Part shown: piece after piece, positions 46,461 through 50,113 of the stretch
Layout: the number at the start of each line of letters is the position of its first letter
How positions within the stretch are numbered: the first letter of the stretch is position 1
DNA from: Bergeyella sp.
Lineage (GTDB): Bacteria; Bacteroidota; Bacteroidia; Flavobacteriales; Weeksellaceae
Reading direction: 5' to 3'
DNA: 64,000 nucleotides
Assembly: GCA_030263285.1 (NCBI GenBank)
Contig: SZYB01000001.1
Span: 186,001 to 250,000, forward strand
Translations under genes and position numbers: made by a program
Notes under the pieces: generated by a model
The model's input: the letters and a program-made list of their open reading frames with translations, nothing else
The model's database searches: none
What the model was told of the DNA's origin: nothing

Positions 46461-47750
46461 ATGCTAGCAATTATAGGGTTTTTGATGATTGGTATTTTTA
46501 TGGTGCTTATAATGACAAAAAAGATGACACCATTAACATCCTTGGTTCTGGTGCCGGTTTTGGTGGCGGTGGTCGCAGGTTTTGGGGAGGGTTTGGGAGA
46601 CATGATGAAGGCCGGAGTAAAAGAAGTGTCTCTTACGGGAGTCATGCTTATTTTTGCCATTTTGTATTTTAGTCTGATGATTGATACCGGTCTATTTGAA
46701 CCTCTTATCAATTTGATTATAAATGCAGTAGGAGATGATCCGGTAAAGACCACCGTAGGTACTGCGGTTCTCACAATTTTAGTCTCTCTGGATGGTGATG
46801 GCGCCTCCACTTATATTATTGTTGTAGTTGCTCTGATGCCTTTATACAGAAGACAAGGACTCAATCCATTAGTTCTTACCTGTATTATTATGTTAGTGGC
46901 TGGAGTTATGAATATTCTTCCTTGGGGCGGACCTACGGCAAGGGTAATGAGCTCACTAAAATTGGGGCATGATCAGATTTTTGTTCCTCTTATTCCTGTC
47001 ATGGGCTTTGGTTTGGTATGGGTGTTTATCGCTGCCTACATATTAGGTGTTAGAGAAAAAAACAGAATTAGAAAATATGGAAAGTTTACCGAGTATAGTA
47101 ATGGCGATATTTCTGGGGAGAGGGATGTTGCTCTGGGAAGACCAAAACTTATATGGGTAAATTTTATTCTTACTCTTTCGCTGTTAATTGTAATGATTCT
47201 GGACGTTATTCCTTTGGCTATCGCTTTCATGATCGCTTTTTGTATCGCTTCCATCCTAAATTATCCGAAGCTAAAAGATCAGCAAAAAATTATGACAAAA
47301 CATGCAGGAAATGCTTTGGCAGTGGCCGGGATGATATTTGGAGCGGGTATTTTTACGGGAATACTCAATGGAACAGGAATTATGCATGCTATGGGAAGAG
47401 CCGTGATAGACATAGTACCCAGTAGTTGGGATCAGTACCTCTCTACTGTAACCGCAGTGTTTAGTATGCCTCTTACATTTTTTCTTACTAACGATGCATA
47501 TTACTTTGGTATCCTCCCTATTATAGTCGCTGCAGGAGAGCATTTTGGTATTGCCCCTGAAGTTATGGGCAGAGCAAGTCTAGTGGGACAAGCTTCGCAT
47601 CTTCTTAGTCCGCTTGTTCCTTCCACTTATCTTTTGGTTTCTTTGGCTGGAGTAGAATTTTCTGACCATTTAAGGTTTACTATTAAATGGGCTTTTGGAA
47701 CCTTTGTCTTCATGCTGGCGGGAGCTTTTATTTTGGGAGTGATTGCATGA
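46461..47750 (+). CDS. CitMHS-type citrate/divalent-metal symporter
   Basis: 429 residues with about 11-12 membrane segments. Matches the CitM family of the ion-transporter superfamily: LSLDGDGASTYIIVVVALMP-like signature VSLDGDGASTY near 112-122, NILPWGGPTARVM, and near the end LTNDAYYFGILPII. Family members import citrate complexed with Mg2+ or Ca2+, but substrate is not settled by sequence. Stands alone; ATG start. The following 330 bases hold the groES control region. Confidence 0.92.
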   Translation: MLAIIGFLMIGIFMVLIMTKKMTPLTSLVLVPVLVAVVAGFGEGLGDMMKAGVKEVSLTGVMLIFAILYFSLMIDTGLFEPLINLIINAVGDDPVKTTVGTAVLTILVSLDGDGASTYIIVVVALMPLYRRQGLNPLVLTCIIMLVAGVMNILPWGGPTARVMSSLKLGHDQIFVPLIPVMGFGLVWVFIAAYILGVREKNRIRKYGKFTEYSNGDISGERDVALGRPKLIWVNFILTLSLLIVMILDVIPLAIAFMIAFCIASILNYPKLKDQQKIMTKHAGNALAVAGMIFGAGIFTGILNGTGIMHAMGRAVIDIVPSSWDQYLSTVTAVFSMPLTFFLTNDAYYFGILPIIVAAGEHFGIAPEVMGRASLVGQASHLLSPLVPSTYLLVSLAGVEFSDHLRFTIKWAFGTFVFMLAGAFILGVIA

Positions 47751-47913
47751 ATTTTTTGTTTTTTCGTACATCTCTGGTGTAGCTATTTTTTTCATAATTC
47801 TCTTTGTCTGGGTGATCTTGGGTGTTAGCTGCTTAAAGTTTATGGGCGCATTATTTCCCCCGTATCATTTTAGGTGCACATCTTAAGATAGTGACATTTT
47901 TTCCGTAATTATT

Positions 47914-47928
47914 TGTCATTTACTGACA
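47914..47928. promoter_or_regulatory. Inverted-repeat operator/activator site upstream of groES
   Basis: TGTCA-TTTAC-TGACA, a 5-bp inverted repeat with a 5-base spacer; another TGACA half-site lies at 47892-47896. It sits about 100 bases upstream of the -24/-12-like promoter, where an enhancer-binding protein would act. Confidence 0.45.
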
Positions 47929-48026
47929 TTTTGTGTGGGAGTAAAATTATTGTTATTATTTAAATTACTGGTAATCTGTGTTTTTGTTTTGCATAATCAG
48001 AATACAAAATATCCCTTTCTTAGTAC

Positions 48027-48042
48027 TTGGCACAACTTTCGC
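48027..48042 (+). promoter_or_regulatory. Sigma-54-like -24/-12 promoter of groES-groEL
   Basis: TTGGCACAACTTTCGC has GG (48029-48030) and GC (48041-48042) exactly ten bases apart and matches YTGGCAC at the -24 box; the -12 box is TCGC rather than TTGC. Predicted start near 48054, leader about 30 bases. No TAnnTTTG element is present nearby. Confidence 0.5.
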
Positions 48043-48084
48043 GAGAGTGTCAGTCAAGGTTTAACCATTAAAATACAAAATATT

Positions 48085-48363
48085 ATGTCAGTAAAATTCA
48101 AACCATTAGCGGACAGGGTTTTGGTAGAGCCTAGTCCTGCGGAAACTAAAACAGCATCGGGGATTATCATTCCAGACACAGCGAAGGAAAAGCCACAGGA
48201 GGGTACTGTGGTGTCGGTAGGAGCCGGCAAGAAAGAAGAGCCTCTTACGGTGAAGGTGGGGGATAAAGTGCTTTATGGAAAGTATTCCGGAACGGAAATC
48301 AAGTTTGAGGGGAAGGATTATTTGATTGTAAGGGAATCTGATCTGTTGGGTGTGATAGGGTAG
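48085..48363 (+). CDS. groES: Co-chaperonin GroES
   Basis: 92 residues from the ATG at 48085 ([16 protein letters not shown]). The frame is open 50 codons further up but runs through the promoter. Mobile loop [14 protein letters not shown], roof and base strands [21 protein letters not shown]-terminus SDLLGVIG. Caps GroEL in ATP-driven protein folding. groEL starts 47 bases later in the same operon. Confidence 0.97.
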
Positions 48364-48398: not shown

Positions 48399-50039
<1,641 letters not shown>

Positions 50040-50086
50040 GTTCTTTTTCCGGACCGGTTGCGAATCAGGTCTTGGAGAACAAGCAA

Positions 50087-50113
50087 AAAACGACCCCTTT
50101 GGGTCGTTTTTTT
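50087..50113 (+). terminator. Terminator of groES-groEL
   Basis: AAAACGACCC-CTTT-GGGTCGTTTT stem-loop (10-bp stem, 4-base loop) followed by TTT, 48 bases after the groEL stop. Confidence 0.85.

Follow-up and report, generated by a model that had tools for sequence, protein, structure and literature searches.

The well-known routes by which bacteria control groESL are few in number and comprise sigma-32 and the HrcA/CIRCE system. The latter, which also controls groESL in other bacteria, relies on HrcA, a repressor acting on a sigma-A promoter. Among the activators that work with sigma-54, PspF, the psp activator of E. coli, couples a sigma-54 AAA+ domain to a Fis-type helix-turn-helix (HTH), lacks an N-terminal sensor domain, and negatively autoregulates.

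A sigma-54-type route is described for Flavobacterium psychrophilum, in which mapped transcription starts assign the sigma-54-type motif SM4 to groES-groEL, lon, dnaK, grpE-dnaJ, htpG, skp and clpB (PMC9723704). The promoter mutagenesis of that study concerned the remFG-sprCDBF operon. In the accessible part of the report, SM4 has no assigned activator and "might correspond to distinct activators", and the sole entry for the regulator gene THC0290_0733, a neighbour of LptE that precedes groES by four locus tags, concerns its own SM5 promoter (PMC9723704). A PSSM survey of Bacteroidota and Planctomycetota, as far as its accessible text extends, reports GroEL, GroES, DnaK, DnaJ and GrpE as enriched for predicted sigma-54 promoters, with the strongest enrichment in Flavobacteriia; that text names no activator for the chaperone genes and does not contain the term UAS (PMC12316311). 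The same text calls GroES of B. thetaiotaomicron sigma-54-dependent, citing as reference 80 a Blattabacterium genome paper. This looks wrong and, because of the nature of the reference, the statement is given no weight here. RpoN in Walczuchella, Uzinura and Blattabacterium has been called unusual, with a role in nitrogen suggested as possible, in the accessible part of PMC3971599. Sulcia is without rpoN according to the same paper.

The window considered here is a stretch of 64,000 nucleotides on contig C12 of a Bergeyella genome of 1.68 Mb. It encodes groES (48085..48363, + strand, 92 aa, PF00166 match of 1.3e-34) and groEL (48411..50039, + strand, 542 aa), and the intergenic gap 5' of groES spans 47751-48084 (about 335 bp). 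The encoded GroEL is at most 91% identical to Chryseobacterium GroEL from named genomes, judged from the best 80 loci among the matches listed. Three loci labelled Candidatus Rokubacteria, Streptomyces griseus and Chryseobacterium gleum (L197, L259 and L215) carry groEL 74-81% identical to that of the window and of the general Bacteroidota type; they are probably mislabelled bins. On the 3' side of groEL, a hairpin followed by a T-run, AAAAAACGACCCCTTTGGGTCGTTTTTTT (50085-50113), is by eye a probable terminator.

The window shares with F. psychrophilum, for which the accessible text of PMC9723704 is the source, a -24/-12 motif before groES-groEL. This box, TTGGCACAACTTTCGC (48027..48042, + strand), departs from TTGGCAC-N5-TTGC at one of 11 fixed positions. 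Its GG (48029-48030) and GC (48041-48042) are spaced ten bases apart, and the letters thus confirm the -24/-12 geometry given in the preliminary description of this DNA. In the standard sigma-54 geometry, transcription starts about 12 nt downstream of the GC of the -12 element, which predicts a start at 48054 (+ strand) and a 31-nt leader. One-mismatch boxes number 15 among the matches listed for the 1.68-Mb genome, and 11 of the other 14 are located within ORFs of more than 100 codons. Since such places are this few and mostly in ORFs, an accidental box in the 335-bp gap is unlikely (about 0.15%). A scan of the whole genome allowing up to two mismatches returned 184 and 174 matches, the reversed pattern giving 86 and 104; of 30 among the matches listed, 22 besides groES fall within ORFs, and no clear regulon emerges.

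Conservation of the box was assessed on groES loci from three sources, namely a search of the order Flavobacteriales (70 loci out of 96 genomes with a match, with some places represented twice), the named loci (79 of 80, L238 being without groES), and 18 loci of the family set. The resulting 166 upstreams, window included, were cut to 132 by grouping on shared k-mers alone. The core TGGCAY-N7-G occurs within 110 nt of the groES start codon in 120 of these 132 dereplicated loci, among them the window, while 200 Markov shuffles of the same upstreams gave a mean of 1.2 and a maximum of 5. Elsewhere the core is found in 0/64 regions before miaB, 0/115 before groEL and 1/65 before the activator gene EBP2 discussed below. 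Some of the 12 loci without a strict core carry GGCAA and GGTA variants. The miss at L205 is artefactual, because groES runs off the contig there and the wrong stretch was taken, so 120/131 is the fairer count. In G284, where the 110 nt before groES contain no box, a box-like CGGCATATTCTTAGTG (by eye) and two TCTGCCAAAATTTCCAT operators are instead located before an extra gene preceding groES.

The genome also encodes the corresponding sigma factor. RpoN is present in a single copy (E 7.6e-51) and carries the three sigma-54 domains, namely the AID, the core-binding and the DNA-binding domain. Within the order, rpoN was found in 92 of 99 genomes, down to a size of 345 kb, and in all 72 genomes with a completeness of 90% or more and contamination no higher than 5%. 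HrcA (PF01628), by contrast with bacteria using HrcA/CIRCE, is unmatched in the window's genome, and no CIRCE element precedes groES: the best match in 47701-48085 is wrong at 6 of 18 fixed positions, in line with the earlier remark that no CIRCE repeat was seen. This nearest CIRCE-like stretch (48027-48053, 12/18 fixed positions) consists of the box and the bases following it, and is likely due to chance. HrcA/CIRCE control was rejected on these two grounds. The assignment to RpoN and an enhancer-binding activator in its place, as originally proposed, is strongly supported by the encoded RpoN, the unmatched HrcA, the box in 120 of 132 loci and the SM4 promoter at groES-groEL of F. psychrophilum in the accessible text of PMC9723704; only the detail of the enhancer probably needs revision. 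The sigma-54 reading of groESL is sound, and is largely known already from F. psychrophilum.

The binding site of the activator was sought in the relatives. De novo expectation maximisation (EM) on 55 groES upstreams, window included, converged on TGcCA-aAa-TGTCA, with a log-likelihood of up to 382 compared with 50-62 in ten shuffled runs. A model of this operator, TGNCA-N3-TGNCA, was then retrained on 54 upstreams with the window left out. It scores at least 12 bits in 111 of the 132 groES upstreams, including that of the window, compared with 0.4% of shuffles, and in 66 of the 87 upstreams outside training, which are relatives and hence not fully independent. At the same threshold, control regions yield operators in 2/115 cases before groEL and 0/65 before EBP2. 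The exact form TGNCA-N3-TGNCA is present in 67/132 groES loci, where shuffles give 0.5, and in 116/132 when one mismatch is allowed. Paired operators are most commonly spaced 29-33 bp apart (30 of the 88 loci having two).

The position of the operators is restricted as well. Their centres cluster at -20, -31, -41, -51, -62, -72 and -104 relative to the -24 GG, with a period of 10.4 bp and a Rayleigh R of 0.85 (111 sites, shared ancestry ignored). This period indicates that the operators stay on one helical face. In several Flavobacteriaceae the operator coincides with the form AATGCCAGC...GCTGGCATTTTT, which raised the question of a mere terminator stem. This explanation was rejected, as the phasing survives removal of the AATGCCA/TGGCATT sites: with these forms and the -20 class both dropped, 57 sites give an R of 0.85, and 37 held-out sites lacking the terminator-like form give 0.87 (shared ancestry ignored). 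At four loci (L123, L124, L128 and L132), a terminator-like stem that follows the preceding gene, located 30-80 nt 5' of the -24 box, includes TGCCAGC-TGTCA-GCTGGCATTTTT; by eye, terminator and operator seem to have this sequence in common.

The window itself departs from this pattern. Compared with F. psychrophilum, as far as PMC9723704 is accessible, its operators are unusually distant and weak, and EBP2 is far from groES. Allowing even one mismatch, no N3-spaced site precedes groES in the window. The best match of the gap to the model trained on relatives is operator A, AGTGACATTTTTTCCGT (47890..47906, - strand), with 12.3 bits. It ranks second in the 64-kb window under the free model, fourth under the palindromic model (12.1 bits), and 109th of the 132 groES loci by score, one of its halves being poor. 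Operator B, ACTGACATTTTGTGTGG (47922..47938, - strand), is 32 bp away in the same orientation and is weak, with -2.3 bits and rank 272 (free model) or 1.2 bits and rank 105 (palindromic model); by itself it is not significant. The two are centred at -131 and -99 from the -24 GG, which is beyond the usual range and out of the helical phase series. Since paired sites are most often 29-33 bp apart, A and B, two TGACATTT sites, are read, with somewhat more confidence than doubt, as a displaced and decayed pair.

The preliminary description placed an enhancer, TGTCA-N5-TGACA, about 100 bases upstream of the promoter and added an extra TGACA half-site. Both are in place. The palindrome, TGTCAtttacTGACA, occupies 47914..47928, its right half being the start of operator B, and the half-site (47892..47896, + strand) is part of operator A. 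The proposal stands as to the kind of site, one of activator type, but probably not as to the N5 spacer: as a general enhancer this form was dropped, because the exact N5 spacing is found in 11/132 groES loci and N3 is the commonest form in relatives. The palindrome has one exact copy genome-wide, in the groES gap, where about 1-2 would be expected by chance, and at up to one mismatch the pattern is unenriched (16 places, versus 26 for the reversed pattern). By itself it is therefore weak evidence.

The genome's other chaperone genes had been named as a place to search for the same pair of motifs, and dnaK gave a mostly favourable result. An operator of at least 12 bits is present in 18 of 26 dnaK upstreams, own genome included, compared with 0.6% of shuffles; dnaK was outside training, and 8/26 upstreams are without such an operator. 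In the window's genome, the dnaK operator AGTGTCATTTTGTCATA (C12, L316 2039) has the clean N3 form and scores 19.6 bits. It is centred 20 nt 5' of the GG of CTGGTATAAAATTAGG, which is box-like but a poor match; relatives keep the box. Nine operator matches of at least 14 bits were found in the stretches of this genome that were examined, and the seven besides those of miaB and dnaK have no convincing box. One of these, TCTGTCAAAATGACATA (19.9 bits, L317 1068, about 317067 on C12), is located in a gap 5' of what is by eye a carboxypeptidase-like gene.

Two proteins with a PF00158 domain at E<=1e-30 are the sigma-54 activators of this genome. The first, EBP2, has 430 aa and is encoded beside miaB on contig C23. 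It consists of a sigma-54 AAA+ domain (PF00158, 13-179) bearing a GAFTGA loop and a Fis HTH (PF02954, 390-426), and resembles PspF in this architecture and in having no N-terminal sensor domain. EBP2 differs from PspF in its linker of about 125 aa between AAA+ and HTH, in its linkage to miaB and mostly to groESL, in its inferred targets, which would be cytosolic chaperone genes, and in an AAA+ sequence nearer to FleQ and NtrC. Among solved relatives of this domain, FleQ and NtrC-family structures match best, followed by PspF (E 6e-56). An alignment of 25 EBP2 orthologues shows that AAA+ and HTH are well conserved and the linker less so, except for an ER-I-YK-LFDM patch, a candidate signal input of EBP2. 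The second activator, EBP1, combines REC and AAA+ domains (C12, L003 1015-2244); the domain search found no DNA-binding domain (HTH) in it.

The genomic neighbourhood points to EBP2. Outside the window's own family, miaB and EBP2 are present in the fetched stretch of 10-16 kb around groES at 24 of 29 Flavobacteriales loci, including those of a 630-kb and a 345-kb genome. In the own family, EBP2 is near groES in 0/10 loci, and EBP2 and miaB are close together elsewhere in the genome in 7/7 genomes examined. Only one activator domain passes the E<=1e-30 threshold in 11 of 29 genomes, among them G211 (345 kb) and six of about 600 kb. In 10 of these 11 the domain is within about 3 kb of groES, and in the eleventh (G207) it is beside miaB. 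Upstream of groES, G211, G221, G230, G238 and G265 each have both a strong operator and a -24/-12-like element. On this evidence, EBP2 is most likely the activator of groES-groEL.

The operator is also found before the operon of EBP2 itself. Upstreams of miaB had been chosen as a negative control and scored 59/64 at 12 bits; the reading as autoregulation came afterwards. With a threshold of 9.5 bits, 87 of 89 miaB loci have an operator (loci not dereplicated, cut-off set without a shuffle control), and in 85 of these 87 a TAnnTTTG element follows 14-28 nt past the operator centre. The two miaB loci that lack the operator (L152 and L325) belong to G211 and G207, both single-activator genomes. 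In the window's genome, miaB (C23, L315 5515) is preceded by ACTGCCATATTGGCATA, a clean N3 operator of 17.7 bits, and then by the promoter TATATTTG. An operator over a sigma-A-type promoter with no sigma-54 core (0/64) points to repression by a product of the same operon, and autorepression of EBP2 at its own miaB operon is probable. EBP2 would thus activate chaperone genes and repress its own operon.

The proposed mechanism can be summarised as follows. Sigma-54 (RpoN) polymerase would transcribe groES-groEL from the box at 48027-48042, and EBP2 would occupy TGNCA-N3-TGNCA operators, which in the window may be the two degenerate sites at 47890-47906 and 47922-47938, 131 and 99 bp upstream of the -24 element. 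At groESL and dnaK, bound EBP2 would touch sigma-54 polymerase and open the promoter via ATP hydrolysis. Where its operator covers the sigma-A promoter of miaB-EBP2, it would block polymerase and thereby limit its own amount. The box, rpoN, the EBP2 gene, the unmatched HrcA, the phased operators of relatives and the genome's own dnaK and miaB operators are all observed, and the binding of the operators by EBP2, the activation of groESL and the self-repression are steps that we infer from them. The whole explanation is held with high confidence. Counted against it are the window's weak, out-of-phase operator, the presence of EBP1, which could act in its place, and the distance between EBP2 and groES in the own family.

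If sigma-54 transcribes groESL, the enhancer in the window's lineage might still be the TGTCA-N5-TGACA palindrome rather than the N3 operator. The palindrome, present as one exact copy genome-wide, has its centre about 133 bp upstream of the start predicted above, which is a usual distance for an enhancer. N5 spacing exceeds its expectation of 0.5 in shuffles, as do other spacers, which between N4 and N12 occur in 3 to 16 of 132 loci (N4 16, N6 10, N7 14, N12 16). A palindrome-constrained EM seeded with N5 remained N5-like; the unconstrained one, in contrast, drifted to N3, and the constrained N5 fit reached 171 compared with 339 for N3. Furthermore, N3 is far commoner in the relatives, both as exact copies and with one mismatch, and the operators of miaB and dnaK in the own genome are both of the clean N3 type, so the preference of the protein seems unchanged. 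An N5 enhancer in this lineage is accordingly a tentative reading, and rather unlikely.

A different activator is less probable again. EBP1 or another protein would then control groESL, and the TGNCA sites would belong to an unrelated regulator, a reading to which the encoding of EBP1 in the own genome and the remoteness of EBP2 from groES in the own family lend some weight. It is opposed by the genomes in which EBP2 is the one strong activator, which retain box and operator at groES in those loci examined, by the operator over the miaB promoter 5' of EBP2, and by the domain search of EBP1, which found no DNA-binding domain; it is considered improbable. Finally, the groES box could be a chance match, with groESL driven by a sigma-A or read-through promoter that escaped recognition. 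The 15 one-mismatch boxes listed for the genome leave room for such a match, but the box core is found at the same place in 120/132 groES loci. Moreover, no TAnnTTTG is present on the + strand in 47701-48085, as had been stated from the start, and groESL of F. psychrophilum has an SM4 promoter according to the accessible text of PMC9723704. A chance box is thus very improbable.

The reach of the circuit beyond the order was examined in groES loci from other classes of the phylum. The TGGCAY core is present in 0/30 of these, a loose CIRCE-like pattern in 11/30, and the operator model fires in 15/30. In family f22 (L056-L081), 14 groES loci have near-perfect TTGGTA-type boxes, mostly TTGGTACGG-N3-TTGC, and at seven loci (frame by eye) the operator match falls within the terminal part of an adjacent coding sequence. 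Since it fires in half of the outside loci and within coding sequence in f22, the operator model is not perfectly specific. EBP2 and miaB were found upstream of groES at the named loci of two Mucilaginibacter, one Olivibacter and one Pedobacter, and the EBP2-miaB-groES arrangement therefore extends past Flavobacteriales.

In the accessible parts of the open-licence literature, outside which most subscription papers fall, no activator or operator is assigned to these chaperone promoters. As far as searches show, the probable activator, the operator, its phasing and the autoregulation are new with respect to that literature. Together, candidate activator, operator and helical phasing make the chaperone circuit directly testable.

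It is likely that a single PspF-like activator, EBP2, whose gene accompanies miaB and, except in the window's own family, mostly lies close to groESL, governs a sigma-54 heat-shock regulon throughout Flavobacteriales and beyond. It would do so via short-range TGNCA-N3-TGNCA operators tied to the helical face of the promoter and would repress its own operon by means of that operator, and the circuit would survive genome reduction to 345 kb. The EBP2 circuit would give a specific explanation of why tiny symbiont genomes retain RpoN, a retention called unusual in the accessible part of PMC3971599. If this is true, some flavobacterial insect symbionts would keep RpoN for the control of chaperones and not for nitrogen.
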